Positions 2,477 through 58,782 of a stretch of 64,000 nt of DNA are shown here, in pieces. Under the pieces are notes generated by a model. That model ran no database searches. It worked only from the letters and a program-made list of their open reading frames with translations, and was not told the origin of the DNA. Source of the DNA: a virus. Location of the stretch: the IMG/VR virus record IMGVR_UViG_3300022669_000027, positions 1 to 64,000 of that record, one strand, 5' to 3'. A program made the translations under genes and the position numbers. The first letter of the stretch is position 1. Every line of letters starts with the position of its first letter.

Positions 2477-3058
2477 ATGGCAAATAAATCATCTAAAGGA
2501 GGAGAATTTGAAAGGGAATTTTCAAAAATATTCTCTAAATATGTATCTAATGGAAAAAGAACTGATATTTTCTGGAGGACAGCTCAATCTGGGGGCCGTG
2601 CGACCCAAAGAGCCAAGCAAAATTTGAAAACGGAGGGCGCATATGGTGACATAACTTGTCTGGACAGCACCTATTCTTTCGTCACCGAAGCCTGTTGTTT
2701 TGAACTCAAAAGAGGATACAACAACACTAATTTTCAAGATATGGTGGACGGTACCAAAAAAGAACCGGAATTAAAAAAATTCTGGACTCAATGTGAAAGA
2801 GACAGGGAACTTGGAGGACGGCTTTTTTCTATTGTGGTGACGAAAAGGGATCGAAAAAAACCAATTATCACCATTCCCAGAAAATTACATTATCTTATTT
2901 CTCATAAAATAGGATTATGCTTGTATAATAGGATAGATATTTCTTATAAAGGAATGAGTACAACATCTATTCCTTTAGAAGAGTTTTTGGAAAACGTCCC
3001 CGCTTCTTCCTTTTTACGGATACTCAAAGAACAACTACGGAAACAAAAAGAAAGGTGA
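2477..3058 (+). CDS. PD-(D/E)XK-type nuclease, possibly a Holliday junction resolvase
   Basis: This 193-residue protein has the layout of a small restriction-like nuclease. An N-terminal helix carries a conserved glutamate region (GGEFEREFSKIF, about 8-19), followed by a WRTAQSGGR segment, then GDI (about 56-58), and FELKRG (about 75-80) supplying the ELK part of the motif. In this superfamily these residues bind Mg2+ and cleave DNA. In a phage recombination and repair operon, a branched-DNA or end-processing role is plausible, but the specificity cannot be read from sequence. The C-terminal tail is strongly basic. Confidence 0.65.
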   Translation: MANKSSKGGEFEREFSKIFSKYVSNGKRTDIFWRTAQSGGRATQRAKQNLKTEGAYGDITCLDSTYSFVTEACCFELKRGYNNTNFQDMVDGTKKEPELKKFWTQCERDRELGGRLFSIVVTKRDRKKPIITIPRKLHYLISHKIGLCLYNRIDISYKGMSTTSIPLEEFLENVPASSFLRILKEQLRKQKER

Positions 3059-3063
3059 ATCAT

Positions 3064-6718: not shown

Positions 6719-6813
6719 AAGTTATAGAGCAATCAGCCCAGGTATGGGGAGAGACACCTTTGCAATTCCAACCCGCACTTGAGCGAATTGAACGAGCTGG
6801 CAGACAATTATGA
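6715..6813 (+). pseudogene. Truncated 5' copy of thyX
   Basis: Starting at the ATGA overlap with the methyltransferase stop, 32 codons reproduce the N-terminus of the thyX at 7396 with changes only at residues 3-4 and one synonymous change. The match ends within GCAGACAAT, where the sequence switches to a copy of the ligase end (4402-4436) and a stop follows at once. It is a non-functional remnant left by insertion of the dNMP kinase gene, although a short peptide could still be made. Confidence 0.9.
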
Positions 6814-6834
6814 ATATTTAAGGAGTCTATAATG
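6800..6834 (+). repeat. 35-bp copy of the ligase-helicase junction (4402-4436)
   Basis: Identical to 4402-4436, including the AAGGAG ribosome-binding site and the TATAATG start context. It supplies the translation signal of the dNMP kinase gene. The shared 9 bp GCAGACAAT with thyX marks the recombination joint. Confidence 0.92.
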
Positions 6835-7371
6835 CTGATTGGATTAACTGGACGGGCGGGAAGCGGAAAATCTTCCGTAAGCGGTTTTCTCGAAACTAAC
6901 TATGGTTTTCATAGAAAGGCTTTCGCAGATCCTGTAAAAAAGACTGTATCTGATCTTTTCAGAATACCTATTGATTGTTTTTATGATCCTGAAGAAAAAA
7001 TAAAAACAGATCCCATGTGGAATATAACCAGGAGAAAAATCTTACAGATATTCGGTACTGAATGTATCAGGAATCATTTCGGCGCAGATTTTTGGGTGAA
7101 GCTGATGGTACTGGATATCGCCGACCTTCGGCAACGGGAAGGGAGCGGTGTGGACATCGTTATAGATGATGTCCGGTTCCCAGAAGAAGCCCGTATGATA
7201 CACGATAACGGCGGCAAAATCATTTCAATAAAAAGACCTGACAACCCCTATGAGATAGACCAGACTCATATATCTGAAACATTCAAAACCATTCCTTTCG
7301 ATAAGGAGATTATCAATGATTACAGTCTCTTATCGTTATTTAATCAAGTTCATAACATATTCAAAGTTTAA
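6832..7371 (+). CDS. Deoxynucleoside monophosphate kinase
   Basis: Phosphorylates dNMPs to dNDPs for phage DNA synthesis. The protein (179 residues) starts with a P-loop GRAGSGKS (7-14). It carries the FADPVKK segment and the DDVRFPEEA motif (about 106-114) characteristic of phage dNMP kinases of the T4 gp1/T5-like group. It is followed 24 bp later by thyX, and with thyX, NrdJ and dCMP deaminase it forms a complete dNTP supply block. Its leader is a copy of the ligase-helicase junction, and the truncated thyX copy precedes it, so it looks like a late insertion into this operon. Confidence 0.85.
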   Translation: MLIGLTGRAGSGKSSVSGFLETNYGFHRKAFADPVKKTVSDLFRIPIDCFYDPEEKIKTDPMWNITRRKILQIFGTECIRNHFGADFWVKLMVLDIADLRQREGSGVDIVIDDVRFPEEARMIHDNGGKIISIKRPDNPYEIDQTHISETFKTIPFDKEIINDYSLLSLFNQVHNIFKV

Positions 7372-7395
7372 TTAACAATATTAAGGAGATTTCTA

Positions 7396-8244
7396 ATGAA
7401 AATCGCAGAGCAATCAGCCCAGGTATGGGGAGAGACACCTTTACAATTCCAACCCGCACTTGAGCGAATTGAACGAGCTGGCAGACAATGTTACCAGAGT
7501 CTGGACAAAATAGAAACAGGAACCGCCCGGCCTTTTTTGGAACGGGTACTCAAACCTGTTCCTGCTCATTTGTCAGTAACAGAGCACTCCAACATGGTAT
7601 TCCGTTCCAAAAAAGTAAAATTACCTTTAGAACTGGAACAACGTGTTAAAACCAAGATTTCTTCCAATTTCATATATACAGGAATCCACAGAGACCGTGT
7701 ATATATTTTCGGTAATTTCCGGGCCTGGTATGAAATGATGAAACCTGGTTCTTTTTTTGATCTTGAAGATTCCAACTATCTCTTGCACACGGGTGTTGAT
7801 TTTAAACGAGTTCTTGAAAATAAAAAACTTCCGCGCTTTGCGAAAGCTGTTACTGTGTTGTTTAAAACCGACAGGGCAGTCTCTCATGAAATAGTAAGAC
7901 ATAGACCATGCGCTCAGAGCCAGGAAAGTCAGCGATATGTCAAATACGACGGAGATATGGAATTCATTGCCCCTTCGTGGTACGATTCCGCAGACTCTGC
8001 TCAAAAAGCCGTATGGGAACAATCTATGTATCTGGCAGAACACAACTACAAAAGACTCCTCCAAGGAGGACTTAAAGCCCAGGATGCGCGGACTGTTTTG
8101 CCAAATTCCACAGCTACTTCTATTGTGACGACCGCTTATCTTCCTGAATGGGATCATATCTTTTATTTACGGACTTCTTCAGCGGCCTACCCATCCATGC
8201 GTTCTCTGATGGTTTCTGCTCAGAAACAAATGAAGCGTATATGA
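7396..8244 (+). CDS. thyX: FAD-dependent thymidylate synthase ThyX
   Basis: Converts dUMP to dTMP with methylene-tetrahydrofolate, FAD and NADPH. The ThyX signature RHRx7S is clear: RHR at 168-170 and S at 178, followed by QRY. The length (282) is typical for phage and bacterial ThyX. The start is preceded by AAGGAG. The stop overlaps the next small gene as ATGA. A truncated copy of its first 31 codons lies 681 bp upstream. Confidence 0.93.
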   Translation: MKIAEQSAQVWGETPLQFQPALERIERAGRQCYQSLDKIETGTARPFLERVLKPVPAHLSVTEHSNMVFRSKKVKLPLELEQRVKTKISSNFIYTGIHRDRVYIFGNFRAWYEMMKPGSFFDLEDSNYLLHTGVDFKRVLENKKLPRFAKAVTVLFKTDRAVSHEIVRHRPCAQSQESQRYVKYDGDMEFIAPSWYDSADSAQKAVWEQSMYLAEHNYKRLLQGGLKAQDARTVLPNSTATSIVTTAYLPEWDHIFYLRTSSAAYPSMRSLMVSAQKQMKRI

Positions 8245-8546
8245 CAATGGATAAATCAGAACGAAAAATTCCCAAAGGCTGTCCTGTATTAGGAGGGAGT
8301 TCCAAAATCAAGATAGTTAAGACAGCCTTTATTCGTGTATGCAAAGCCAAGCAATTCCCTAAAAGATCCAAAAAATCAATCGGTATTTATACTGGTATTT
8401 GTTCTAACGGTCTCATTGCTTGTAAACATTGCCCAATCGGATCTGAAGTAAATTCTGGAAAATTCAGAAGGCCGGTTCCGGGTCAGATGGAATTCATACA
8501 TCCGTATGATCTAATTCAACAAAACAACAAAGAGAATAAATTATGA
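8241..8546 (+). CDS. Small cysteine-containing hypothetical protein between thyX and nrdJ
   Basis: An open frame continues upstream into thyX, but the ATG at 8241 overlaps the thyX stop (ATGA) and is the likely start, giving 101 residues. It is basic, with CPVLGG near the N-terminus and a CKHCPIG motif in the C-terminal half, possibly metal-binding. Its stop in turn overlaps the nrdJ start (ATGA), so the three genes are translated as a coupled unit. I do not recognise a family. Confidence 0.7.
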   Translation: MTMDKSERKIPKGCPVLGGSSKIKIVKTAFIRVCKAKQFPKRSKKSIGIYTGICSNGLIACKHCPIGSEVNSGKFRRPVPGQMEFIHPYDLIQQNNKENKL

Positions 8547-10711
8547 ATACTGCCGTTAAAGCTCGAAAATTAACAGAAACTGCGGAAATCGTACTGGCAC
8601 GTCGTTATTATCTCAAGGACGGCAACGGCACTGTCCTGGAAAATTGGGAAACGCTCTGTCGGCGGGTTGCGGATGCCGTTGTAGAAGTGGACAGCGACCA
8701 GGAAGATTATCCTGCTCTGCGGGAGGCTTTCTTTGAGATGATCTATCGGCTCGATTTTCTGCCCAACTCACCCTGCCTTATGAATGCAGGCACAGATTTA
8801 GGGCAGCTTTCCGCCTGTTTTGTCCTGCCGGTGGAGGACTCTATGGACGGCATTTTCACCTCCATCCGTAACGGTGCGCTGGTGCATAAAACCGGCGGTG
8901 GAACCGGATATTCTTTTTCCCGCCTCCGCCCCAAGAATTCAGCTGTCCGTTCCACTCAAGGGGTTGCTTCCGGGCCGCTCAGTTTTGCTGCGGTCTTTGA
9001 TGCGGCCACCGAAACCATCAAGCAGGGAGGCAAACGGCGGGGGGCAAATATGGGCGTACTGCGGGTTGATCATCCGGATATCCTCGATTTCATCACGGCG
9101 AAGGAAGACCAGACCCGATTCACTAATTTCAATTTTTCCGTGGCCATCACCGATACCTTTATGGAGGCGGTGAAGAACAATCAGGAGTACGATTTGATTG
9201 ATCCCTCGATCCCTGAGGCAGTGGGCTCTTTGGACGCCAACGAAGTCTTTGACAAGATCGCCAGTAACGCATGGCATAACGGCGAGCCGGGTGTACTGTT
9301 TATCGATGAGGCCAACCGAGCCAATGCCACGCCCCAGCTTGGTGACTTCGAGGCAGTGAATCCCTGCGGCGAACAGTTTCTTTTACCTTATGAATCCTGC
9401 AACTTAGGCTCCATTAATCTTGCCAACTACTGGTTGGGTGAGGAGGTTGACTGGGACAGGCTGGCAGGCACCGTAAGCCTTGCTGTCCGGTTCCTCGACA
9501 ACGTGATCGACTGCAACCGATTTCCGATCCGAGAAATCGAAGAGACGACCCTGAGAACCCGGAAGATCGGCCTCGGCATCATGGGGCTGCACGATATGCT
9601 TATTCAGATGGGACGGTCCTATGGAAGCGAGGAGGGCAGGGAAGCCTCTGCGGAAGTGATACGCTTTATCAAGGACCAGGCAGAGGTTGCGTCTGCCCTA
9701 CTCGCTATGCGGAAAGGGTCATTTCCGGCATATGACCCGGAGGTCAATCTATATACGGCCCGCCGCAATGCCGCCTTGACATCTATCCAGCCCACAGGAA
9801 CCGTCTCCATGATCGCTGACTGTGCCTCCGGCTGTGAACCATATTTTTCCGTGGTGACGGAAAAAAATGTGATGGACGGCGACAAGTTTCTGATGGTCAA
9901 TAAGCATTTTGAAGCTGTTGCTCGGCGGGAGGGATTTTTTTCCGAAGCCCTGATGAAAAAAATCGCTCAGAGCGGCACCGTGCTGGGGCATGACGAAATT
10001 CCGAAGAAGTGGCAGGAGGTGTTCCGATCAGCTCAGGATATCGCCCCGGAGGACCACATTGCGATGCAGGCCGCACTCCAGACAAACGGCGTGGACTCTT
10101 CGATCAGCAAGACAGTCAACATGCCAGCGAATACCGTGGCTGAGGATGTAAAGGGGGCATACCTCCAGGCATGGGAGACCAAATGTAAGGGCCTGACAGT
10201 CTACCGGGACGGTTCCCGTGATGCCCAGGTCCTCAATACGGTGGGCACAGACAAGAAGATGGCTACAGTCTCTGGCCGGGGACTCCTGCACAAAACCGAG
10301 CTGCCCGATGTGCTCAGCGCTAAACGGTACCGCCTGAAGGACGTCAACGGCAATGCCATTTATATTATTGTCTGTTTTGCCGAAAATGAGACGCCGATGG
10401 AGGTTTTTGCCAAGTTTCCATTTGACAACCAGGTTGATCTGAAAGACAAGTCCACTATGTGGACAACCACCTGCCGTTTAGTATCTACGTCTTTACGATA
10501 TGAAATTCCTATGGAGGAGATAATCAAACAGCTTGACCGCTCCAGCGGACATATGCTTGACTTGCCCGCTCAATTGAGTAAACTGCTCAAGTCGTTCATG
10601 GCAGGAACCCGGAACGGATTTTCTTCTGCCTGCCCGGAATGTTCCGGAAAACTGGTTTTCGAGGAAGGCTGTGAGGCCTGCCGGGAATGCGGCTACTCCA
10701 AATGTTCTTGA
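8543..10711 (+). CDS. nrdJ: Class II (adenosylcobalamin-dependent) ribonucleotide reductase
   Basis: Reduces ribonucleotides to deoxyribonucleotides without oxygen dependence, using adenosylcobalamin. At 722 residues it contains the NrdJ hallmarks: SACFVLP with C92, KTGGGTG, GGKRRGANMG, the radical-cysteine motif NPCGE (273-277) and ESCNLGS. The C-terminus ends in a CPECSGK...CRECGYSKC zinc/redox tail. No intein interrupts it. The gene is visibly richer in G+C and more regular in codon use than the AT-rich genes around it, suggesting recent acquisition from a bacterial host. No small subunit is present, as expected for class II. Confidence 0.93.
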   Translation: MNTAVKARKLTETAEIVLARRYYLKDGNGTVLENWETLCRRVADAVVEVDSDQEDYPALREAFFEMIYRLDFLPNSPCLMNAGTDLGQLSACFVLPVEDSMDGIFTSIRNGALVHKTGGGTGYSFSRLRPKNSAVRSTQGVASGPLSFAAVFDAATETIKQGGKRRGANMGVLRVDHPDILDFITAKEDQTRFTNFNFSVAITDTFMEAVKNNQEYDLIDPSIPEAVGSLDANEVFDKIASNAWHNGEPGVLFIDEANRANATPQLGDFEAVNPCGEQFLLPYESCNLGSINLANYWLGEEVDWDRLAGTVSLAVRFLDNVIDCNRFPIREIEETTLRTRKIGLGIMGLHDMLIQMGRSYGSEEGREASAEVIRFIKDQAEVASALLAMRKGSFPAYDPEVNLYTARRNAALTSIQPTGTVSMIADCASGCEPYFSVVTEKNVMDGDKFLMVNKHFEAVARREGFFSEALMKKIAQSGTVLGHDEIPKKWQEVFRSAQDIAPEDHIAMQAALQTNGVDSSISKTVNMPANTVAEDVKGAYLQAWETKCKGLTVYRDGSRDAQVLNTVGTDKKMATVSGRGLLHKTELPDVLSAKRYRLKDVNGNAIYIIVCFAENETPMEVFAKFPFDNQVDLKDKSTMWTTTCRLVSTSLRYEIPMEEIIKQLDRSSGHMLDLPAQLSKLLKSFMAGTRNGFSSACPECSGKLVFEEGCEACRECGYSKCS

Positions 10712-44692: not shown

Positions 44693-44764
44693 GAAAATTT
44701 TTAACAGAAAAATAAAAAAAACAGGAACTTACTTTCGATTCTTTCTTTTCTTTCGATTTTTTCC

Positions 44765-44793
44765 TTTACTTTCTTTTTGAATCAGAATATACT
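44765..44793 (+). promoter_or_regulatory. Rightward promoter TTTACT-N17-TATACT of the moron
   Basis: TTTACT at 44765-44770 and TATACT at 44788-44793. The 33 bp from 44781 to 44813, including the -10 and 20 bp beyond it, are identical to the leftward promoter region at 52631-52663. It is divergent with the scaffold promoter. Confidence 0.75.
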
Positions 44794-44856
44794 GTACTTG
44801 AAGGTAAGGGAAAGCCCCTACGAACTATATAATTCATCACCTCAAGGAGATAAAAG

Positions 44857-45553: not shown

Positions 45554-47830
45554 TTAAAGTAGCCGTCCTGTAATAGGATCTGCCAAAGTTCCTGAAGATA
45601 TAGCCTTCAATAAATCTTTGACCGTGAGAAAATTACCATGCTGGTCCAATAATTGGACCATACTTGTTATTTTCCCGGCCCTGAATAAATCAGCCCGCTT
45701 TGGTCCAAGAATGCTGTTTTGCATAGAATCGGATTGATTTTTAAGCCAGTCAGTGTACTTCCAATCTTTGGGAACTTTGCCATCCATAGATGCCCTAGTC
45801 TGAGGGGGAATAGGCTCTAATAAATCCTTGCGTTTCCTTTTATCCCCCTTGTACTGAGCACGTAACTCCGCCCAAGACTTAGTTAGGGGAGACAATACCG
45901 ACCTGCAATTATGTACCACAAATCCTTTTACTACATAACTTTCATCTTCTTCTACTGAAAAATTATAAAGAATTTTTGGTTTTTTCGGAGTCCATGATTT
46001 GTTTGCCGTGACTTCTACATCCATAAACTCAAACATCCCTTCGTGATTATTCAATATGCGATTTATGCAGTAATATAATTCTCTTTGATTTTTAGCCGTT
46101 TTTTCATCTATATGAAATACATCCCATCCCTCTTTTTTCAAGAAAAAATCTCTTGTGGCCTCCCTTTCTTTATCAGTATGCCAATAGTCCCCATCTATTT
46201 CCAGAACTATTTTCAAGCTAGGAATAGCAAAATCCGCAAAATAAGGCCCTATCGGAAATTGAGCCTCATAGCATATCCCCTGTCTGTCTAATGCTCTTGC
46301 TGCGTTTTTCTCTAAAGAAGACATAAATCCCTTCTTAGCCATGATCCTGTTAGGATGCAAATCTGGATTCTCCGCCAATCTTTTCTTTGTGGAATCCGAT
46401 ATTTTTTTTCTAACTTCTGGATCAAATGTAGGATTATTTTCTTTCATTCTTTTGGAAATAAACTTTCTTTGTTCTTCCGTAAAATCCGCTCCCGTAAATC
46501 TTCTGTCTCCCAAATTTTCTCCAGAAAAAGGATGAACTCCGTCTTGGATCATCTGTCTAGTTTTCTCATTCGCTTTTCTGGTGATCGCATAAGGATCTCG
46601 GATCCCCTTTTCATATTCCCGGCGCAACTGCTCAGAAGCTCTTTTTGATGCAGCTTTCCTTTTTTTTGGGTCTTTTGCCCAATTTCCCCCATAATGAGAA
46701 GTGCCACATGATCTTCTACAGTACTTCAGCCAATACGGTTTTAATTCCCCACACGAGCACCTGTCTGCCATCAACAATACACTGTCTCCCACCCTTATGT
46801 CCTTAATAGGAACCCAATGACTCTTCCCATCGCGCTTCACTAATACAGGATGCTCTTCTGTAGCCGTCAATGAAATATTTTTTTTAACATCAAAATTAAG
46901 AGTATAGACTACAGGAGTCTGTTTATACTGCCTTAACAATTCTGTGACAGGCCGGAATCTTCCTTGATGAGTAAGAACCATGTCCCCGACTTTGATCTTT
47001 CCGATGGGCTTATATCCTTTGTCTGTGTATACCGGAATCTGAGGATCTATAAAACACTGCCAATGATTAGGAGGAGGAGATACCCAGCGTGGTCCCTTAG
47101 CTACTTTGTGATTTTTCTTGAATACAGTTCCGTCCGCTGCCTTACAATAAGGAGTGGTGCGTCCATCCAGTGTGGCCACATACTTGTAGCCCTTGATCAA
47201 ATCCCCCATCTGATCGTAAGACTCCCGACGTGACTCATTCAAAACAGCCATCACCGAAGTACGGGCAAGAGCTTCCGCGTTCCTTCTGGATACGGGCATG
47301 ACATTCTTTCGTATCCTTCTGGAAAGATCCCCGATAGTCTCAGCTCTCTGCATCCCCATTCGCATTTCTCTTGCAAATTTATCCTGAATAGCTTGGGTTT
47401 GCTTCTTCCACCACTGAGAAGGGAATGCGCCCTCTACCAAGGTGTTGCGAGCCAGTGCCTTGAGACGAGAAGGGGACATTGCAACAGACACAACCTTTGC
47501 TCCGAGGGCCGCAGTCATGGCTCCTGATACAAAAGCAGCTTCCGCCGCCGCCAAAGTTATCAGATCGGCATCCACGGCACCAGACACCTTATCCATATGT
47601 GTTTTTATTGTGTCTTGAGTTTGTTTCAATAAAGCCTGTAGACGTTTCGTTTGGTGGACTGTTCTTTTGGGTGCTGTGGGATCTATGGTGGCCAAATCAG
47701 AAACCAAATCGCGTTCCAGATCCTTGAGCATTTTGAGAACCTTACGCCGTTCTGACGCCTCTACCCTCATCAAGTCCACTGCGGAATGATGGATGATCTG
47801 ATCTTGTAATATCTCGTTTACTGTACTCAT
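45554..47830 (-). CDS. SPP1 gp7/MuF-type minor head protein interrupted by an intein
   Basis: 758 residues as encoded, 375 after splicing. The extein has helical N-terminal regions and the MuF domain: RRNAEALARTSVMAVLNESRR (quoted in part), YVATLDGRTTPYC, and PPPNHWQ joined to CRSVLSP. The intein (residues 259-641) separates HWQ from CRS, the most conserved MuF motif. MuF proteins sit at the portal and are often injected or help assembly. The gene follows the portal-region genes in the leftward unit. Confidence 0.88.
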   Translation of the reverse strand: MSTVNEILQDQIIHHSAVDLMRVEASERRKVLKMLKDLERDLVSDLATIDPTAPKRTVHQTKRLQALLKQTQDTIKTHMDKVSGAVDADLITLAAAEAAFVSGAMTAALGAKVVSVAMSPSRLKALARNTLVEGAFPSQWWKKQTQAIQDKFAREMRMGMQRAETIGDLSRRIRKNVMPVSRRNAEALARTSVMAVLNESRRESYDQMGDLIKGYKYVATLDGRTTPYCKAADGTVFKKNHKVAKGPRWVSPPPNHWQCFIDPQIPVYTDKGYKPIGKIKVGDMVLTHQGRFRPVTELLRQYKQTPVVYTLNFDVKKNISLTATEEHPVLVKRDGKSHWVPIKDIRVGDSVLLMADRCSCGELKPYWLKYCRRSCGTSHYGGNWAKDPKKRKAASKRASEQLRREYEKGIRDPYAITRKANEKTRQMIQDGVHPFSGENLGDRRFTGADFTEEQRKFISKRMKENNPTFDPEVRKKISDSTKKRLAENPDLHPNRIMAKKGFMSSLEKNAARALDRQGICYEAQFPIGPYFADFAIPSLKIVLEIDGDYWHTDKEREATRDFFLKKEGWDVFHIDEKTAKNQRELYYCINRILNNHEGMFEFMDVEVTANKSWTPKKPKILYNFSVEEDESYVVKGFVVHNCRSVLSPLTKSWAELRAQYKGDKRKRKDLLEPIPPQTRASMDGKVPKDWKYTDWLKNQSDSMQNSILGPKRADLFRAGKITSMVQLLDQHGNFLTVKDLLKAISSGTLADPITGRLL
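45908..47056 (-). mobile_element. Intein in the MuF gene with Vsr/DUF559-like endonuclease
   Basis: 383 residues, starting CFIDPQIPVYTDKG and ending VVKGFVVHN before a cysteine. Block A: IGKIKVGDMVLT; block B: TATEEHPVLV; blocks F/G: YNFSVEEDESYVVKGFVVHN. Between them are a cysteine cluster (CSCGELKPYWLKYC), NUMOD3-like helices (HPFSGENLG, PEVRKKISDSTKKRL) and a PD-(D/E)XK domain of the Vsr/DUF559 type (SLEKNAARAL, YFADFAI, KIVLEIDGDYWH, GWDVFHIDE). The endonuclease is in frame, as usual. Splicing residues C1, N383 and C+1 are intact. Confidence 0.85.
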
Positions 47831-48062
47831 TATATTTGCTACCTAATGATGGATGCACGGAATTTCCCGTGTACTACCGCCTCTTTTCGACCGGAAAAAA
47901 GCAAGAATCAGAGTAACTGTCCTATTATAATTCTGCTTGAACTTACTTATTTCTTTCTGAATCTCAAACCCATGTTAAAATATCAAAATACGTTATTTTT
48001 CCTCTGCTTCCTTTTCCGGGGGAGGCTCTTTTTAAATTCCCTTTGAAACTCCTGTAAAAGAT

Positions 48063-48317
48063 CTAATTCTTGATCTTTTTCCCAGACGGCAGAAAAGTAA
48101 ATTTAGACAACCGATTATAGCATTGCCATATCGAAAAAAGCAATCGAAAAGACATTGCCTTTTTCTGACCGCACACTTTCAATTTCTCTCTGATGTGTCG
48201 ATTAAATTCCACTGACCATATAGCCCAATCCTCTGCATTAACAGACTTGTTTTTGGATTTTGTATATTCCTGTTTCAACAACTTGTAACATTCATTCGGA
48301 TCGCTGGGAAAACTCAT
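48063..48317 (-). CDS. Small hypothetical protein
   Basis: 84 residues, basic, helical, with DWAIWSVEFNRHIREKLK in the middle. ATG overlaps the preceding stop (ATGA). Nothing identifies a function. The 230 bp after it up to the MuF gene hold no convincing gene. Confidence 0.6.
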   Translation of the reverse strand: MSFPSDPNECYKLLKQEYTKSKNKSVNAEDWAIWSVEFNRHIREKLKVCGQKKAMSFRLLFSIWQCYNRLSKFTFLPSGKKIKN

Positions 48318-48526
48318 TTGTCATCCTTTGATTGAGTTTCATTATCAAAACCTTCTTTCCTAGAATATCCCGGACAACGAAGTAAATTGCACTGTCCGTC
48401 CGAAGATCTGCTATGATCGCATTCAGAAACCGCAGGGGGAGTGGCGAGAAAACGGCCCCTGGTTCCTGTCCATTCCTCCCATGTTCCGATAAAATGCATA
48501 CACCCCTTTCCAAAATAAAAAGCCAT
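48314..48526 (-). CDS. Small Cys-containing protein carrying the EEWTGTRGR repeat
   Basis: 70 residues. A different, overlapping frame (48292-48564) is also open, but this one is coupled to the next gene by ATGA and has AAGG upstream. It contains FIGTWEEWTGTRGRFLA and a CNLLRCPGY segment. The DNA coding for EEWTGTRGR (48453-48479) recurs at 58600-58626. Confidence 0.55.
   Translation of the reverse strand: MAFYFGKGCMHFIGTWEEWTGTRGRFLATPPAVSECDHSRSSDGQCNLLRCPGYSRKEGFDNETQSKDDK
48453..48479 (-). repeat. 27-bp repeat shared with 58600-58626
   Basis: Identical 27 bp in the same orientation 10 kb apart. Here it codes for EEWTGTRGR; at the second site no long frame continues. Confidence 0.9.
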
Positions 48527-48693
48527 ACATATACCTTAACCCATAATAACAGTGAAAGGGCCAAGAAGGCCCTGCAAAATTAATTCTTCGCCGACCTCAG
48601 ATCATTATTTCTTTTTCTTTTTCTGAGTTGGTCGTTTCCGGGCTTCTTTTTGAAGTTCTTATGCCCAAACCATGACAGGTCTCCTCATATGAT

Positions 48694-50169
48694 TTACTTT
48701 TCAGAACCTTCTTCAGGCTCTTCCTCTTCCAATTCTTCGTCTATAATTTCCCCTTCTCCGGGAACTGCGGCTGTGTAAGAACGAGCGTCCAATGGAACTT
48801 CCTCTTCAATTCTTTGACGTTCCTCTTCCATGTCTATATCATCTGGATATATCTCCCCGCGCTTATAATTGAAAAATAAAACCTCCCAGGACATCGCACC
48901 GCCTTGCCAAGATTCCATCAGTTTAGCAACTTGCTCAGGAGAAAGTCTGTCATTTATAAAATCAGTATTTAATAATACATTGATTTCTTTGGTCATTCCT
49001 CTCCACTCCATCAACCATGTGAAAGCGACACTCAAAGCAGAAGATACTGTTTTGGAAATTGAAGACAGTATATTATTCTCCCCCCTGAACCGTGTAGTAA
49101 GAGTGCTGTCAGATTCGACAGCCTTCTTGGGATCTTCCAGCATCCGCGCTCCCAGTACCGCCATCATCTCTTGTTTTTCCTTCAAAGCATTTTCAAGAGA
49201 TTGCAGACCTTGACCCGTAAATTCCAAAAAACCTGCATGTGCGTCTGGTTGATCCGAGACCCATGCGACCTGAGAACCAATCCTGAAAATCTCTTCTTTT
49301 TCAAAACCTGCAACCCAGGCTGTAGGAAGGCCCGTAAAATGTCTACCATGCTCCAGATCCGCAGAAGAGCGATAGTGAGAAAGGTTCACATTGGCGAGTG
49401 CCAATATAGGAGAGTCATATATTCGAGATGTGTTATCCACCGGATTGACGAATATGAACGGAATATAGGAAAGAGACTGGTTCCCCACTGTAGGCACAAC
49501 CGTGAAGTCTGGATCTTCTTCATATTCTACTACAGTCTTCCCTTTTCCTTCAGAATGATCGTTCGGGCGGAATACTCGTTGACGGTAAGTTCCTTCAAAC
49601 AATTCCAGTACACGGTATTGTTTTTTAGTTTTTTGAACAAACTCATCTTCAGTAGGTTCCTCAAAATCCTCCTCCAACACTACCAATGATAATTGAAGAC
49701 CGTCTCCGTTGTCTGCGTACCTCCAATTAATAATTGCCTCTGTTTGGTACAAAGCTATATACGCGGGGCCTTGTATACCGTTGTCCCTATTTGAAGGAGC
49801 GTCCACTAATATCCCCAACCGGCCTGTTACTATGATTTCATGTACTACCGAAGATGCAAAATTATCGCAATCTTGGTAATCTTGAGTAACTGAAGAGAGC
49901 TCTTTTTTGACCCGGCCTTCCTTTTCCTGGATGAGCGGGGGTTTGCGGAAAATAGCACCCTGCAACCCTTCTACAGTTCTGCCGGTCGCCCCATAAAACA
50001 AAGCCCGTTCTTTGTATGCACTATATTCGTTGGGGGACTGTTCTGTAAGGGCGGGGAGAAATCGTACACCTGCGTCTTTGACGGCTTCCTCCCCGCCAGC
50101 CACCGTTCTGCATTTAAACCAACTTTCTTTATTTTTGTTGTATTCTTTACAAGGGGTATTTACAGGCAT
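48694..50169 (-). CDS. Portal protein (DUF4055-like)
   Basis: 491 residues from the ATG at 50169 (AAGGAGG upstream). The N-terminal region NEYSAYKERALFYGATGRT and EGLQGAIFRKPP, and the body with RLGILVDAP, IINWRY, and RHFTGLPTAWVAGF, match the DUF4055 portal family. The portal forms the dodecameric DNA gate at one capsid vertex. The C-terminus is very acidic (EELEEEEPEEGSEK). Located between terminase and MuF genes as expected. Confidence 0.8.
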   Translation of the reverse strand: MPVNTPCKEYNKNKESWFKCRTVAGGEEAVKDAGVRFLPALTEQSPNEYSAYKERALFYGATGRTVEGLQGAIFRKPPLIQEKEGRVKKELSSVTQDYQDCDNFASSVVHEIIVTGRLGILVDAPSNRDNGIQGPAYIALYQTEAIINWRYADNGDGLQLSLVVLEEDFEEPTEDEFVQKTKKQYRVLELFEGTYRQRVFRPNDHSEGKGKTVVEYEEDPDFTVVPTVGNQSLSYIPFIFVNPVDNTSRIYDSPILALANVNLSHYRSSADLEHGRHFTGLPTAWVAGFEKEEIFRIGSQVAWVSDQPDAHAGFLEFTGQGLQSLENALKEKQEMMAVLGARMLEDPKKAVESDSTLTTRFRGENNILSSISKTVSSALSVAFTWLMEWRGMTKEINVLLNTDFINDRLSPEQVAKLMESWQGGAMSWEVLFFNYKRGEIYPDDIDMEEERQRIEEEVPLDARSYTAAVPGEGEIIDEELEEEEPEEGSEK

Positions 50170-50237
50170 GGAATAACCTCCTTTCTTTTCATTAATCAAT
50201 AACTGAGATTATTATACGATAAAAATAAATAAATATC

Positions 50238-50534
50238 TTATAAAAAATCAACGCCGCAATTAGGGCAGTACATTCCCTCCTGCATAACATGAAGTAGATC
50301 ATTCCCACAATCACAAGTTAGATGAGGGCCTTCCCGCAGGACCAAGTACTTAAAATGCCCTTTATAACAATTGCATTTCGGACATTGTAACTGGATCGTT
50401 CCAACCGGAGCTATCCCGGTCCACTCGTGACCACATCCGATGCAATGACATTCTCCACCTATATGGGGATCATATCTTTCCGACTCTGATTTGATCTCTT
50501 TACCGGTACAAAAATCGATCATTTTACCTGACAT
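50238..50534 (-). CDS. Triple zinc-ribbon small protein
   Basis: 98 residues with five CxxC-type pairs or half-pairs: CHCIGC, CPKC, CDC, and CPNC near the end, consistent with two to three zinc ribbons. Likely nucleic acid- or protein-binding; the exact role is unknown. The intergenic region behind it (50211-50216 on the minus strand) contains a TATAAT that may be a promoter -10 for the portal gene, though the -35 is poor. Confidence 0.7.
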   Translation of the reverse strand: MSGKMIDFCTGKEIKSESERYDPHIGGECHCIGCGHEWTGIAPVGTIQLQCPKCNCYKGHFKYLVLREGPHLTCDCGNDLLHVMQEGMYCPNCGVDFL

Positions 50535-50871
50535 GTGTATATCCTTCTCTTGATAAAAAACGAACTACTTCATTCAAATCAACAATAACCCTGGGCCATT
50601 TATTAATTGTTCCTCCGCATATACAAAAAGAGCGACTCTTTTCAGTAATGATATTGAAAGACGGATTTTCCAAAAGACTGCATATACTATAGGTCTCAAA
50701 TCCTGTAGGGCCTCCAACGAACTCGATTAAATCTTCTTCTCCTTTCCTTTCTATGACTTCCATTCGTATCGTTTTCTCCCGGCTCCTCTTTTCTACATTT
50801 ATGTATTCCCCCAAAGTTCTGTCCCATGTTCCTATAGACATCTCCCACTTCGAATTGATTTCCTTTTTCAT
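50524..50871 (-). CDS. Hypothetical protein
   Basis: 115 residues, mixed alpha/beta, with CICGG (about 83-87) as the only motif. It overlaps both neighbours by 4-11 bases and so belongs to the same accessory operon. No family recognised. Confidence 0.62.
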   Translation of the reverse strand: MKKEINSKWEMSIGTWDRTLGEYINVEKRSREKTIRMEVIERKGEEDLIEFVGGPTGFETYSICSLLENPSFNIITEKSRSFCICGGTINKWPRVIVDLNEVVRFLSREGYTHVR

Positions 50872-51059
50872 TTCCTTCTCCCTTTTCTTGTTATTTTTCT
50901 CTGATCTTCTGTCACTAAACGAGTCAAATATTCTGCAACCTTTGACTCCATGGATGAACTAACAACCGGGGCCATAGAAGAACTATTAAGATCTATGATC
51001 TGAAATATAACAATCCCGGTACATGAACTTTCTTGAATCTGCGCTTTCAATCCTTCCAT
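50868..51059 (-). CDS. Small hypothetical protein
   Basis: 63 residues from the ATG at 51059, which has GGAGG upstream; the frame is open further upstream but lacks a better start. Ser/Val-rich middle and a very basic end (RKITRKGRRK). It overlaps the preceding gene by 13 bases and the next by ATGA. Function unknown. Confidence 0.58.
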   Translation of the reverse strand: MEGLKAQIQESSCTGIVIFQIIDLNSSSMAPVVSSSMESKVAEYLTRLVTEDQRKITRKGRRK

Positions 51060-51619
51060 TGGGTTCCCTCCAGTTCTTTCATTGTTTGCAAAAACAATTC
51101 CCATGAACCGATTGCCTTGATAAACAGCAATGCGCTAAAAAGAAACCGTACCACAAAAGATACCTTGCCTAATATTTTCCATGTAGACACTGTAGATTGG
51201 GGGATACCAGTTACTTCGCAGAATTTACTTTGAGGAGCCTTTATCCCGAACAACCTCACCATTCCGGTATGGACTCCGATCCCGTCCATAAACGCGGAAC
51301 TGTGAGCTTTTCTCACAGTCAATATCCTCTGTATGAAACCGTCCACCGCCTGTAATTGGGCACAAATCGCCTCATTGGGATCTGTAAAAGATCCCGACAC
51401 GTACCAAAATAACTCCCCAGCCTCTTCTCCCGTGGAACTGCATAATACTGTAAATTCATCCGTCACAGGACATCTGGTCAATGTCATGCCTTGCTTAAAC
51501 AAAGAAACATGCCATCCCAGATTTTGGGATATTCGAATATCCCAACCCTCCGGGTCATGAAGTAAGTCGAGTCCTGCTTTCCCGGCTTCCTGAGCTTCTT
51601 TTTTTGACAAATAGGCCAC
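51047..51619 (-). CDS. Hypothetical protein with a possible HTH and membrane segment
   Basis: 190 residues. Residues about 130-150 (GIKAPQSKFCEVTGIPQSTV) resemble a helix-turn-helix turn, and about 150-175 form a hydrophobic helix. This combination could be a membrane-linked regulator, but neither feature is strong. Start preceded by GGAGGTGATTTTGT. Confidence 0.6.
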   Translation of the reverse strand: MAYLSKKEAQEAGKAGLDLLHDPEGWDIRISQNLGWHVSLFKQGMTLTRCPVTDEFTVLCSSTGEEAGELFWYVSGSFTDPNEAICAQLQAVDGFIQRILTVRKAHSSAFMDGIGVHTGMVRLFGIKAPQSKFCEVTGIPQSTVSTWKILGKVSFVVRFLFSALLFIKAIGSWELFLQTMKELEGTQWKD

Positions 51620-51623
51620 AAAA

Positions 51624-51791
51624 TCACCTCCTTGATTTTAAGTAACGGTTCCAGTCTACGGCTTCCGTAAAACTATCAAATTCTTCTTTGATTTTTTCTC
51701 TTTCTTCTTTGATTTCTTCGAGAGAAGGCGGGACATATCCCACAGACGGAGCGTTGATGAATTCCTTCGCTGTAATGATTTCATGTTGCAT
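51624..51791 (-). CDS. 55-residue acidic helical peptide
   Basis: The ATG at 51791 follows AAGGAGAAAGG; a longer frame to 51902 is open but has no such signal. Rich in Glu/Lys (LEEIKEEREKIKEEFDSF), so probably one amphipathic helix. Function unknown. Confidence 0.6.
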   Translation of the reverse strand: MQHEIITAKEFINAPSVGYVPPSLEEIKEEREKIKEEFDSFTEAVDWNRYLKSRR

Positions 51792-51807
51792 GTGCCTTTC
51801 TCCTTTA

Positions 51808-51912
51808 TTATATAATCGTAAAAGGTTTGATATCCACGTACACATATTTCCATTCCACTGTGTACTTGAACATAGCGCGAAGATCTCCTTCCTTGTATAC
51901 AATTGCGTTCAT
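51808..51912 (-). CDS. 34-residue peptide
   Basis: Preceded by AGGAGATCAATCC before its ATG at 51912. Reads MNAIVYKEGDLRAMFKYTVE and continues with aromatic strand-like residues. Supported by its ribosome-binding site and by fitting between two genes; no function known. Confidence 0.5.
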   Translation of the reverse strand: MNAIVYKEGDLRAMFKYTVEWKYVYVDIKPFTII

Positions 51913-51984
51913 GGATTGATCTCCTGTTGTGTTGGGTTATTCCCGGCCTTGTGACCGGGAGGGTATATTTATTTATATTCCTGC

Positions 51985-52602
51985 CTATATCAAAGAACCG
52001 TTGCTCATTTCTTCTATCCACTCTGCCTGGTGGTATCCTTCAGGCACCAGAGAATTTACTTTTATTTGGAAGTGGAGCATTGCAGAGCCTTCGAACCTGA
52101 TAGAGTTTGTAACCCGAAGGCATCTACAATCGGATTCTGTAAGTTCAGGAAAATCTTTTTTTGCCTCAAGATAAAGTTCTTTATATAGCCGTAGGTCGGT
52201 TCCGTAACAATCTGGAATAATAACGCAGTTCCATATTTCACCATTAGTCCGTACCATCTTTGTTGTGTTCATGGTTGTTTTTCTGGCAGACTTAGGAGCA
52301 GGCTTTATTATCTCCGATTGAATTTCCATATCTTCGATTTTAGAAAAACCGTACCAGTCCGTGTTGTTCGCTACCGGAGCCGCGCTTTCTTCCCATCCCA
52401 TTTTCTTAAAAAGCTGGACAGAAGAATCTGAAAAAGAATCAGAAGTCGCTAACAAGTGTAGATGCCCGCTGATTTCGTCCACTATCTTCGCTTTGGACTG
52501 TGTTGTATCAATGCCTACTGCGAGGTCACCATTCATTTCCTCAGCGGCTTCCATGATTACTTCCCGGCGTACTGTTTTGATGATTGTTGTCCGTGCTTGC
52601 AT
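51985..52602 (-). CDS. First gene of a leftward accessory operon, hypothetical
   Basis: 205 residues from the ATG at 52602 (AGGAG upstream), about 40 bp after the promoter at 52651-52679. Upstream codons of the same frame are open but lie in the promoter and terminator. The protein is mixed alpha/beta with a helical N-terminus, GIDTTQSKAKIVDEISGHLH near 30-50, and a Ser/Asp-rich middle. No family recognised. Its strong promoter, shared with the moron, suggests expression separate from the structural genes. Confidence 0.68.
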   Translation of the reverse strand: MQARTTIIKTVRREVIMEAAEEMNGDLAVGIDTTQSKAKIVDEISGHLHLLATSDSFSDSSVQLFKKMGWEESAAPVANNTDWYGFSKIEDMEIQSEIIKPAPKSARKTTMNTTKMVRTNGEIWNCVIIPDCYGTDLRLYKELYLEAKKDFPELTESDCRCLRVTNSIRFEGSAMLHFQIKVNSLVPEGYHQAEWIEEMSNGSLI

Positions 52603-52650
52603 TTTGTTCTCCTGGTTGATTTGTATACCGTTTCCCTTACCTTCAAGTAC

Positions 52651-52679
52651 AGTATATTCTGATACGGAAAGAAAGTAAA
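52651..52679 (-). promoter_or_regulatory. Leftward promoter TTTACT-N17-TATACT
   Basis: On the minus strand, TTTACT (52679-52674) and TATACT (52656-52651), 17 bp apart. Identical to the moron promoter over 33 bp (52631-52663), including 20 bp beyond the -10, which suggests a shared operator as well as RNA polymerase contacts. Confidence 0.75.
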
Positions 52680-52718
52680 GAAAAAAATAACGTATTTCGA
52701 TATTTTTTTCTCGCCAAC

Positions 52719-52756
52719 AAAAAGCCCCTCTCTTTCTTGTCGGTGAAGAGAGGGGC
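52719..52756 (-). terminator. Rho-independent terminator upstream of the 52.65-kb promoter
   Basis: GCCCCTCTC (52724-52732) and GAGAGGGGC (52748-52756) form a 9-bp stem. On the minus strand the stem is followed by five T residues (52723-52719). It insulates the accessory operon from terL transcription. Confidence 0.8.
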
Positions 52757-52905
52757 AAAAGGAGGGTAAGCGGAGAACAGAATAATAAAAAACGCTTACT
52801 AACAACGGACAACACTAATGCTTCGGGAAAGAAGCACAACCACTGGAACCCTTACTTGGCCCTCTCGATTTAGGAATATCCGTTACTAAATTATTATACA
52901 ACGGA

Positions 52906-52936
52906 AAAAAGAAAAAGGGGAAATAAATATTTCCCC
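52906..52936 (-). terminator. Rho-independent terminator after terL
   Basis: GGGGAAATA (52917-52925) and TATTTCCCC (52928-52936) form a 9-bp stem with a 2-base loop; the minus strand continues with a run of T residues (52916-52906). It lies about 45 bp past the terL stop. Confidence 0.75.
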
Positions 52937-52982
52937 CCGATCCATGTAACCGATAACTGTACCTACTGCATACAACAATAAT

Positions 52983-55784
52983 TTATAAACCGGAAAGCCG
53001 CGTCTGTTCTAATACCCTTTTCTTAATAGGGAATTGACCGTGTATGTAGTATCCACCGGCATCGCAATTGGACACTATCGGACTATGCTTAGTTAATTTA
53101 AAATACCCATAATCAGGCACCGTCAAACAATATACGTCCTGGTCTTCTTCTGGATTCATGGTAACAAGTTCTACTGCAGTATTTTGCAGGGGGAAGGTAT
53201 CTGTCCCTTTTAAATACCTCTCCACAATATTGACAAGTATACTGGACAGCATCCACTCCCGACTTTCTTCTGGCCGCCGCTGTACACGCCTTTGAACAAT
53301 ACTTATTGCGCTTTTGAATTTCCGCTTCATACTCCTTTTCACAGTGGGAGCAAGTAAACCTGCCTCGTTTGTGGAGTTTATGTTTGACTTTTTGGTAATT
53401 TTCACGAGCCTGTTTTCGTCCTTCCTCTGATTGATGCCAAGCCCGTGCCTTCTTTTGGCTGTCCCCGTCAGAAGTGAAACTGCCCCTCTGAAACCCGTTC
53501 CGTACCCGTTCTTCCAGATGGTATTTTGCATGATCGGAACAAGACACAAGTTCCAGATTCTCAATTTCGTTATTGTCCGGATCATGGTCTTTATGATGGA
53601 TGACATACCCCTTTGGAATTGGGACCACCTTGTCTTTATAGATTTCCCTATGTAATAACCTAACGCCTTTACTGCCAAGGAAACACTGCCAATATCCCCC
53701 GTGTTTAACATAGGTATTTCCGTTATAAACTTCTGTCCTTTGTTGGCCTTTCCTATTTCTACCCATTGCAAATCCTCCGTCAAAAATAAATGATCAGGTG
53801 TAGCTATTATATAATAGCTACGTGCATCAGGTAAAGAAAAAACGTACTTGTATACTTTCTGTTGTTTCTTTTTTATACCTCCCTTAACATAGGAACTCCA
53901 ATCCTCATTACTCACCCTTACCTTGCCCGTGCGCGGAATGTCCTTAAATCTGAAAATCCCCTTATCTGTTTCTACTAATTGATCCCCTCCGAAACAAATA
54001 TCATCTCCCTTCCCCTCTCCTTTTTCCGGGAGACCATTCGCATCATAGGCCTGCTGTTCCAGAGAATCCGTATAAAACGGACACTCTGATGTATTGACCT
54101 TGTACCGACGTTCTCCTTGAGAATTGCAGAACATACCGTTCATAGAGGCAATCCTGTCTTTAGGAACTGGGTTGCGGCTTCTCCTTTTTATTCGCCATCG
54201 TTCATCTTTAAGCAATTGTAGATCAGACTCAGTAGCATTCTGACTTTTTCTATTTTTTGAAGTAGCATCAGGATACACTGTGATGGGCCAACCATGATAT
54301 CTGCTGTTGAGTACCCGAATTGTATCAGGAGTATCGAAACTGTTAACAACTTCATCCACAGCTATCGGTGACCCATCCCTCAATACATGAACTACTGCAC
54401 AGCCTCTCCCTACATTAAAGTCCATTCCTATATGAAGAGGCTCTTTCTGACGGGGATCTATTCTCACATCAGAATGATTATGCTTCCTACTGAACATATG
54501 GTATACAGTACCGGACGTAAGATTGGTGAAAATCCCTTCTACATACGCCTCTAACAAATTCTCATCATAATTACCTTTCAAACTGTCCACATAATCCTCT
54601 GGGAGATTCGCCTGATTGGAATATGTAGAGGCCCTGACATATATATGTTCTTTTGAGGGGTTCTTTTCCCACCTGTTATACACGAAGTTAAACCCCTCTG
54701 GGGTAGTATATGCGCATACCTGGTTCGTTGGACTGCCCGGTAATTTCTGGCGATTTCTTGCTATGATCTTATTCCATGCGTTCTGGGCATTCTTGAATTT
54801 CAGGGTATCTATCTCATCAACATGACTTCTGAACGCTTCGTACCCGATAATACGATTGGGCTTATCCAATGTCCTTATGACAAACATACCTCTGTTCAAA
54901 AGGTAGATAACATTTTCAGACTTATTGTGGAGGTAGGGGACATTGGCTGTATCAAGGAGTTCCAAAAGGCGAGGGATAAGAATGAGACGTGCAAGATCAT
55001 ACGTAGGTTCGTACAAAGCTACTGTAGACCTGGGCCACATGAATTTATCTCGGATTGCCCTGGCCAATAATGTCTGTGTCTTGCCGCTATTATGATGAAT
55101 ATGTCCATATTCATCCACATAATTATTTGTATTTAGTACCTGTATATCCCAATAAACCTCCTTCACTTCCTTTACCGAAACCTTTATTATATCCGTAATA
55201 GACAAATCACTATTCTTCAAAGAGACAGGGTGGGATTTTAGAACATCGTTTGATAATGAGTGACATGCTCCAGCGTCCTCTCCTCCCTGAAGAAATTGTT
55301 GACCATATTGACGGGATAACTCTCCATAATTCACCAAAGAATCTACGTCTTTTTGAGAATAATGCCCTTCATCTGAAAACAACAATTTCAAATCAGATCC
55401 CGAAGTGGTCTTTGGAAGGTCTCTGTTCAATCGATAAAGGCCGGAGGAGTATCCCAATTCAGAAATCTGTTGATAAGTACCGTGAGATGAAAGAGAGTGG
55501 TGATGCCCGCTTGATACAAATTCTCCGTGCTGCGATTGAACTCGGAACAGATAGTCCTTACCTTTTGGGAACGCACCACTGGTTGGAGAAAGCACGAATT
55601 GATTACAGTTCTGATCATAACTTAAAACGCGCTCTCCTGGCAATATATCGCAAATATTCTTGAGCCCATTCTCTGTCCATATGCGGGTATCTGCCCGCAT
55701 ACAACCGAAGCCTCCAACGAAAGCTGGGTACTTGCAATCTAACCAGAAGAAGTCAGATTGAGGTTGTGTTAAATCCCATCCCAT
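52983..55784 (-). CDS. terL: Terminase large subunit interrupted by two inteins
   Basis: 933 residues as encoded, 418 after removal of two inteins (residues 28-232 and 597-906). Extein motifs: Walker A GGFG joined to SGKTQ, Walker B with VDEID (about 322-326), coupling motif TTPEG (about 360-364), and the RNase H-like nuclease with GMDFN (D455), VYPDATS (D506) and GDDI joined to CDAGGY (D595). It translocates and cuts concatemeric DNA into proheads. Intein 1 splits the P-loop, intein 2 splits the nuclease active site, so splicing is needed for both activities. Start preceded by AAAAGGACATAG. Confidence 0.92.
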   Translation of the reverse strand: MGWDLTQPQSDFFWLDCKYPAFVGGFGCMRADTRIWTENGLKNICDILPGERVLSYDQNCNQFVLSPTSGAFPKGKDYLFRVQSQHGEFVSSGHHHSLSSHGTYQQISELGYSSGLYRLNRDLPKTTSGSDLKLLFSDEGHYSQKDVDSLVNYGELSRQYGQQFLQGGEDAGACHSLSNDVLKSHPVSLKNSDLSITDIIKVSVKEVKEVYWDIQVLNTNNYVDEYGHIHHNSGKTQTLLARAIRDKFMWPRSTVALYEPTYDLARLILIPRLLELLDTANVPYLHNKSENVIYLLNRGMFVIRTLDKPNRIIGYEAFRSHVDEIDTLKFKNAQNAWNKIIARNRQKLPGSPTNQVCAYTTPEGFNFVYNRWEKNPSKEHIYVRASTYSNQANLPEDYVDSLKGNYDENLLEAYVEGIFTNLTSGTVYHMFSRKHNHSDVRIDPRQKEPLHIGMDFNVGRGCAVVHVLRDGSPIAVDEVVNSFDTPDTIRVLNSRYHGWPITVYPDATSKNRKSQNATESDLQLLKDERWRIKRRSRNPVPKDRIASMNGMFCNSQGERRYKVNTSECPFYTDSLEQQAYDANGLPEKGEGKGDDICFGGDQLVETDKGIFRFKDIPRTGKVRVSNEDWSSYVKGGIKKKQQKVYKYVFSLPDARSYYIIATPDHLFLTEDLQWVEIGKANKGQKFITEIPMLNTGDIGSVSLAVKALGYYIGKSIKTRWSQFQRGMSSIIKTMIRTITKLRIWNLCLVPIMQNTIWKNGYGTGFRGAVSLLTGTAKRRHGLGINQRKDENRLVKITKKSNINSTNEAGLLAPTVKRSMKRKFKSAISIVQRRVQRRPEESREWMLSSILVNIVERYLKGTDTFPLQNTAVELVTMNPEEDQDVYCLTVPDYGYFKLTKHSPIVSNCDAGGYYIHGQFPIKKRVLEQTRLSGL
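53067..53996 (-). mobile_element. TerL intein 2, in the nuclease active site
   Basis: 310 residues, starting CFGGDQLVETDKG after GDDI and ending KLTKHSPIVSN before C907. Block B is YIIATPDHLFLTEDLQW; block F is VYCLTVPDYGYF. C1, N310 and C+1 are intact. The linker between blocks B and F has no recognisable endonuclease in the intein frame; its translation is basic and unusual. The same DNA encodes a full HNH protein in another frame (53113-53766). Confidence 0.85.
53113..53766 (-). CDS. HNH homing endonuclease in an alternative frame of TerL intein 2
   Basis: 217 residues with its own ATG preceded by GGAGG seven bases upstream. HNH core: GYVIHHKDHDPDNNEIENL (about 53-71) then DHAKYHL. C-terminal zinc motifs: FTCSHCEKEY...KYCSKAC and YTCQYCGEVF...KYCSRTC. 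The frame differs from TerL by two bases, so this is a nested gene, not an intein domain. It begins in the codons after intein block B and ends inside block F. HNH enzymes of this type cut intein- or intron-less alleles to drive homing. Translation from an internal site on the terL mRNA is inferred. Confidence 0.85.
   Translation of the reverse strand: MGRNRKGQQRTEVYNGNTYVKHGGYWQCFLGSKGVRLLHREIYKDKVVPIPKGYVIHHKDHDPDNNEIENLELVSCSDHAKYHLEERVRNGFQRGSFTSDGDSQKKARAWHQSEEGRKQARENYQKVKHKLHKRGRFTCSHCEKEYEAEIQKRNKYCSKACTAAARRKSGVDAVQYTCQYCGEVFKRDRYLPPAKYCSRTCYHESRRRPGRILFDGA
55089..55703 (-). mobile_element. TerL intein 1, in the Walker A loop
   Basis: 205 residues, starting CMRADTRIWTENGLKNI after GGFG and ending VDEYGHIHHN before S233 (SGKTQ). 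Block A includes ILPGERVLSYD; block B is EFVSSGHHHSLSSHG; blocks F/G are VYWDIQVLNTNNYVDEYG and HHN. The linker (about residues 120-200) is not endonuclease-like in this frame. Its complementary strand encodes an HNH protein (55202-55663). Confidence 0.85.
55250..55663 (+). CDS. HNH endonuclease encoded antisense to TerL intein 1
   Basis: The only rightward gene in this region. The open frame runs from 55202; candidate starts are TTG 55250 and ATG 55256. The HNH module is unmistakable: EHRLIMSDMLQRPLLPEEIV (55241 on), DHIDG, HNSPKNLRLFENNALHL and PKWSLEG. It matches the common phage family with EHRLVM...LGRPLLP.EVVHHIDG. The core (55241-55420) is opposite the intein linker; the C-terminal part runs opposite blocks A and B. 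The start codon is uncertain because part of the HNH-family N-terminus lies before the first ATG and no strong ribosome-binding site is seen. It may be a functional antisense homing endonuclease or a decaying one. Confidence 0.7.
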   Translation: MIMSDMLQRPLLPEEIVDHIDGITLHNSPKNLRLFENNALHLKTTISNQIPKWSLEGLCSIDKGRRSIPIQKSVDKYREMKESGDARLIQILRAAIELGTDSPYLLGTHHWLEKARIDYSSDHNLKRALLAIYRKYS

Positions 55785-58594: not shown

Positions 58595-58782
58595 GCCCCC
58601 GGCCCCTGGTTCCTGTCCATTCCTCCAGGAGGGCTTTAAACAACACCCGTACCAGAACCTCTGTCGGGGGCCGTTCGAGTTATGTAACCGGTCTTACGGA
58701 GTGGGCTGTATAGGGCCGGAACCTCTCTGGCCCGGATCAGGTATACAGACTCACTCTCAGGACGGACAGGAACCGGTTGTCG
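58595..58782. other. GC-rich, structure-prone interval without a gene (candidate ncRNA)
   Basis: Between 58361 and 58798 I see no convincing gene. This part is much richer in G+C than its surroundings and contains long-range complementarity: GGTTCCTGTCC (58608-58618) with GGACAGGAACC (58772-58782), GCCCCCG (58595-58601) with CGGGGGC (58665-58671), and local hairpins such as CCTCC-A-GGAGG. The 27-bp repeat shared with 48453-48479 lies inside (58600-58626). It could be a structured RNA or packaging/recombination site. Confidence 0.4.
58600..58626 (-). repeat. 27-bp repeat shared with 48453-48479
   Basis: Identical copy in the same orientation. In the corresponding frame a stop follows after a few codons, so here it is not part of a long gene. 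Confidence 0.9.

Follow-up and report, generated by a model that had tools for sequence, protein, structure and literature searches.

The large terminase subunit (TerL) of the virus studied here very probably contains two mobile inteins, each encoding its splicing protein and a homing endonuclease in different frames of the same DNA. One nuclease gene is antisense to its intein and the other lies out of frame on the same strand, and the two layouts are conserved features of two large phage intein families. The window, that is, the whole stretch of DNA analysed, comprises 64,000 bases of the 67,301-base IMG/VR virus record IMGVR_UViG_3300022669_000027. The features discussed below are as follows.

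52983..55784, minus strand: TerL precursor, one continuous 933-codon ORF with two inteins
55089..55703, minus strand: intein 1, 205 aa, in the Walker A loop of TerL (GGFG|C...HHN|SGKT)
55250..55663, plus strand: antisense HNH ORF (HNH1) inside intein 1, N-terminally truncated, frame open from 55202
53067..53996, minus strand: intein 2, 310 aa, in the TerL nuclease motif GDDI|CDAGG (GDDI|C...VSN|CDAGG)
53113..53766, minus strand: out-of-frame HNH endonuclease gene (HNH2), 217 aa, nested in the linker of intein 2 (HNH_3, E 7.3e-13)
45554..47830, minus strand: MuF-like head morphogenesis protein precursor, one 758-codon ORF with one intein
45908..47056, minus strand: intein 3, 383 aa, in the MuF motif (HWQ|C...VHN|CRS)

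Inteins in the TerL and MuF genes

The TerL ORF matches Pfam Terminase_6N/6C and the PHROG terminase, and the MuF-like ORF matches Phage_Mu_F (E 8.2e-13) and TIGR01641. All three inserts lie in frame between extein halves and contain Hint blocks A, B, F and G, and each has a nucleophile at position 1, the block B His, a C-terminal Asn and a nucleophile at +1. Against Pfam Intein_splicing, inteins 1 and 2 fell under the curated cut-off (E 3.6e-4 and 8.8e-6, respectively) and intein 3 came just above it (E 7.9e-9). Profile searches with both TerL intein families recovered solved inteins (7cfv and 1mi8; gp41-1, DnaB and DnaE); for intein 2, in which the Hint blocks are present, family alignment A4 matches solved inteins. 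When both inteins were removed, the window TerL aligned with the intein-free TerL of Salmonella phage Shemara at 48% identity, ungapped at both junctions, and this clean exclusion was counted in favour of the mobile-intein explanation for TerL. The MuF junction, HWQ|CRS, is the counterpart of HPNCRS in Shemara. The original prediction, made from the sequence of the window, placed two inteins in TerL and one in MuF, all at conserved motifs, and this is borne out by the Hint and Pfam matches and, for TerL, by the Shemara alignment.

The same prediction held that all splice residues are intact. This is true of C1, the block B His and the terminal Asn in all three inteins, but intein 2 has Ser in place of the penultimate His, the only one of the three to lack that residue, and at the block F position where Asp is usual, intein 2 has Cys and intein 3 Asn. 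These non-usual residues were also seen in relatives. From the conserved residues we infer that the window inteins undergo protein splicing. Neither TerL intein is split between separate ORFs, the window TerL being one continuous ORF, and neither inteins 1 and 2 nor the relatives examined have an in-frame endonuclease. Intein 3 does have one, a DUF559/Vsr-like nuclease (DUF559, E 5.3e-10) between the Hint parts, and it is a conventional large intein. A relative at the homologous MuF site in locus L260 is 39% identical to it over the whole length, and loci L258 and L259 match it as well as L260 does. The predicted trio of nuclease arrangements (antisense HNH, out-of-frame HNH and in-frame Vsr-like) was thus recovered, with the correction that the antisense HNH in the window is truncated and startless.

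Several other features of the region were observed. About 2.8 kb of small ORFs separate TerL from the portal gene (window 50200-52982), compared with several relatives in which TerL and portal adjoin, and none of the small ORFs tested there gave a Pfam or PHROG match. A 58-nt inverted repeat, 93% complementary (window 44756-44813 and 52631-52688), has arms that flank the MuF-portal-TerL region and may represent a repeated regulatory element. An exact direct repeat of 27 nt occurs at window 48453-48479 and 58600-58626, with approximately 10 kb between copies. A plus-strand block at window 3055-10711, running opposite to the structural genes, encodes an ATP-dependent DNA ligase, a helicase, a DNA methylase, a ThyX-like thymidylate synthase and a ribonucleotide reductase.

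Two families of TerL inteins and their nuclease genes

The antisense HNH ORF of the window is 52.6% identical to the HNH of Pseudoalteromonas phage PHS3 (E 4e-39), and the intein 1 frame is less conserved (approximately 41%, E 3e-15). Its match to Pfam HNH_3 (E 6.2e-5) is marginal, just below the cut-off, and the ORF is truncated. Full-length antisense HNH proteins were found in PHS3 (236 aa) and in Pectobacterium phages such as Taid (232 aa), and these lie wholly inside P-loop inteins of 300 and 288 aa, respectively. The family was searched with HNH peptides only, so that the presence of an intein was no precondition for recovering a relative. In all 83 relatives sampled (the best 80 of 117 viral-contig relatives plus three isolated phages), the antisense HNH is fully covered by an opposite-strand TerL-intein ORF that ends in the intein C-terminus HN|(S/T)(G/T)K(S/T), and the two frames stand in a single phase, with antisense codon position 1 paired with HNH position 1. 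This sample holds 64 non-redundant HNH sequences, and the best-matching relatives used for both TerL families include near-copies. The antisense layout was likewise present in all six of the genome-collection matches checked, including Enterobacter cloacae DSM 26481 and an Acinetobacter, and no in-frame HNH fusion was seen among the antisense-family relatives examined. The Taid and Amona records have no HNH gene at this position, and the PHS3 record has no intein. At locus L261 (2556-4838), an antisense-family P-loop intein has Cys at +1 (HN|CGKS), not Ser or Thr.

In the second family, the intein frame is +1 relative to the HNH2 frame. HNH2 is complete in the window, with its HNH residues, CxxC pairs as DNA-binding elements and a GGAGG 7 nt upstream of the ATG, and the nuclease-site intein looks competent for homing. 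A tblastn search of phages with the whole of intein 2 gave no match, and its relatives were reached via the HNH frame; for both TerL families they come mostly from metagenomic contigs. The layout of intein 2 is repeated in the TerL of Acinetobacter phage Highwayman, Tetrasphaera phage TJE1 and Rhodobacteraceae phage LS06-2018-MD07. We classified 86 HNH2 relatives, none of them an in-frame HNH fusion. Continuous inteins enclose 51 of these HNH genes, the two halves of an intein flank another 11, no intein parts were found near 22, and contig ends truncate the remaining 2. Hint blocks are present in the continuous inteins, whose ends fall at the TerL nuclease motif, and every one of the 51 uses the phase seen in the window.

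The 11 loci with an HNH2-family gene between intein halves in different ORFs (L101, L116, L120, L125, L128, L133, L136, L141, L144, L145 and L149) are candidate natural split TerL inteins. On the HNH protein tree the continuous, split and free-standing states are interspersed, so the link between HNH and intein has changed repeatedly; the label "continuous" takes 11 changes, of which well-supported branches force at least 5. Locus L102 (1710-2126 and 4001-4522) carries antisense HNH1-family and out-of-frame HNH2-family genes together, as the window does, and a 1539-codon TerL ORF in L134 (138-4754) contains a nuclease-site intein and apparently another Cys-initial insert at the P-loop.

That the inteins arrived by independent invasions, as originally proposed, is supported by the three unrelated nucleases, by separate relatives for each site and by a survey of insertion sites in related phages, where inteins occur in varying combinations. 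In loci L122 and L126 the nuclease-site intein is present and the P-loop is empty, the reverse holds for Pectobacterium phages, and L086 has the P-loop intein together with a nuclease-site intein that lacks an HNH. Such combinations fit independent arrival.

Coding in both frames and competing explanations

Three lines of evidence, namely synonymous shuffles, codon-position rates and SD motifs, indicate that both frames are real. HNH codons were permuted among synonymous positions and stops were counted in each phase. The intein phase was the only stop-free phase in either family: it was open in 39 of 39 antisense-family sequences, where 0.03 were expected, and in 49 of 49 out-of-frame sequences, where 7.8 were expected. 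For the window itself, none of 5000 shuffles of the antisense ORF was stop-free, and the stop-free intein phase of HNH2 had a chance probability of 0.0046. In free-standing HNH relatives, the intein phase contains 6.3 stops on average. In each family the phase used is one left comparatively open by HNH codon composition, which may explain why a single phase recurs.

The substitution pattern was examined in 444 pairs of family 1 (antisense) relatives; since these pairs are non-independent, it is given as a pattern with no p-value. Differences at HNH third positions fall from 0.455 per site over the linker to 0.203 over the N-terminal Hint domain, and those at HNH second positions, which are the intein wobble positions, rise from 0.131 over the linker to 0.171 over the Hint domain. 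Beyond the overlap, the intein has a third-position bias of its own, with 0.44-0.54 at third versus 0.04-0.08 at second positions. The C-terminal part of the HNH and the N-terminal splicing domain of the intein thus appear to be constrained on the same DNA. SD-like motifs precede 53 of 62 antisense HNH starts and 18 of 47 (38%) out-of-frame HNH starts, compared with approximately 12% of random starts.

These data bear directly on the explanation that one of the overlapping frames is a chance shadow ORF, leaving ordinary mini-inteins or ordinary HNH genes. Long shadow ORFs are known opposite genes of biased composition, and in family 2 (out-of-frame) the phase is already fairly open from HNH composition alone (2.0 stops on average after shuffling). 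Against this, the two frames have independent homology, with Hint blocks in one and HNH_3 in the other, the stop-free phase is the intein phase only and in family 1 lies far beyond the shuffled expectation, and substitution rates show both frames constrained in the N-Hint overlap. A chance origin was therefore rejected on the shuffles, the codon-position rates and the SD motifs, and we regard it as highly improbable. That the inserts are not spliced as proteins, being RNA introns or insertions kept in the mature protein, is in our judgement extremely improbable. Out-of-frame HNH insertions with no splicing domain do exist, as in phages ShiLan and Pacc40 (PMC11855218), but here the Hint blocks and terminal splice residues are conserved, the frames stay open, and one insert sits in the ATP-binding loop, where retention should be lethal. 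Group I introns were rejected, since no Rfam match to a conserved catalytic RNA core reached the gathering threshold in the window and no Rfam intron was found in 20 HNH2 relatives without a continuous intein.

The original prediction also raised a coupling of packaging to splicing. Domesticated inteins might regulate packaging, for example through redox-sensitive splicing, given that all three are Cys-initial and interrupt motifs that the host protein cannot do without, which should leave the unspliced precursor inactive. However, the inteins are patchy among relatives, close TerL homologues lack them, the HNH genes have SD motifs and inteins persist with truncated HNH. These facts all fit selfish homing, our analysis found no evidence for regulation of packaging, and we consider this role very unlikely; the proposed coupling is left unsupported.

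Proposed homing, probable nuclease decay and relation to known inteins

In the selfish-homing model that we favour, the long TerL frame would be translated through the intein, whose N- and C-terminal Hint parts would fold and then splice. Translation of the HNH would be separate and begin at its own start codon, which lies on the opposite strand for the P-loop family and in an overlapping same-strand frame for the nuclease-site family. The enzyme would cut intein-free terL at the insertion site, where repair would copy the intein in. In the linker, amino-acid constraint would fall mainly on the HNH frame and the intein frame would need only to remain free of stops; over the stretch shared by the antisense HNH and the N-terminal Hint domain, the same bases would constrain both proteins. 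The window would then hold a nuclease-site intein that appears able to home, a probably dead P-loop HNH and a conventional MuF intein.

The P-loop HNH of the window lacks roughly 80-97 N-terminal residues relative to its family, and no ATG, GTG or TTG lies upstream of the first HNH histidine (EHR motif). It is probably a decaying remnant, and its truncation makes it probably inactive in this phage. Shortened P-loop inteins of 173-226 aa were also found at L178, L183/L184, L192/L193, L194, L206 and L210, with HNH remnants that vary in length; the antisense HNH of L210 is heavily eroded, and the 197-aa intein of L214 has no HNH. The splicing frame persists in every one of these shortened inteins, and the HNH loss is mostly from the linker-encoded N-terminal end. 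The homing cycle includes a decay phase, which these inteins fit (PMC3229294). One tentative and rather doubtful reading is that dual coding protects the nuclease of the antisense inteins: the C-terminal part of the HNH shares bases with the splicing domain of the essential TerL, so that many mutations ruining the HNH would also ruin TerL, and a nuclease shielded in this way would decay mainly from the N-terminal end that the linker encodes.

On the usual understanding, an intein is a single polypeptide whose splicing and endonuclease parts share a frame. Inteins with an in-frame endonuclease, such as those of DnaB, RecA and Cdc21, share with the window inteins the Hint N and C parts, canonical splice residues, insertion at conserved motifs and a homing-type nuclease carried inside the element. 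Intein 3 is an ordinary representative of this group, while inteins 1 and 2 differ in encoding the nuclease out of frame. According to published work, nested HEN domains share a single conserved site within inteins (PMC6801210), in contrast to the antisense HNH, which overlaps the N-Hint domain itself. For some mycobacteriophage TerL inteins, both splicing and endonuclease activity have been shown (PMC5050341). The mycobacteriophage inteins share with the window the TerL host protein and insertion at the P-loop, but all of them lie in the ATPase domain, and none is known to carry an antisense or out-of-frame nuclease.

The nearest precedent found is the out-of-frame HNH insertion of ShiLan. 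In ShiLan and Pacc40, hidden out-of-frame HNH insertions in phage methylases were described in 2025, with an HNH-type nuclease off the host frame, a host frame that stays open and a patchy distribution suggesting homing (PMC11855218). They differ from the window in that no splicing domain was detected, so that the insertion is thought to stay in the protein, and in that antisense coding was not described (PMC11855218). Intein 2 has a comparable out-of-frame HNH, but its splicing domain is present and the insert is an intein. Among open-licence PMC papers, we found no earlier account of an intein whose nuclease is antisense or out of frame. The split inteins in fractured genes of Dassa et al. 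(2009) reportedly carry a nuclease gene between two intein halves. This layout is shared by the 11 split HNH2 relatives, whereas in the window and the 51 continuous relatives the intein frame runs uninterrupted through the nuclease gene. The free-standing HNH genes beside terL in Shemara, PAE1 and EauM-23 belong to the HNH2 family (35-38% identity to the window HNH2) but, unlike the window gene, have no intein parts nearby.

Two widespread phage families encode splicing and nuclease functions in frames that overlap, in one family on opposite strands, so that the two proteins of a mobile element share the same bases. As a natural example of long antiparallel dual coding of two recognisable domains, the antisense family is unusually clean. 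Standard annotation overlooks one of the two overlapping proteins, as in the Taid, Amona and PHS3 records. Our findings connect free-standing HNH genes, split inteins and continuous inteins at a single target site, and they yield a testable scheme for the gain and loss of homing endonuclease genes by inteins.
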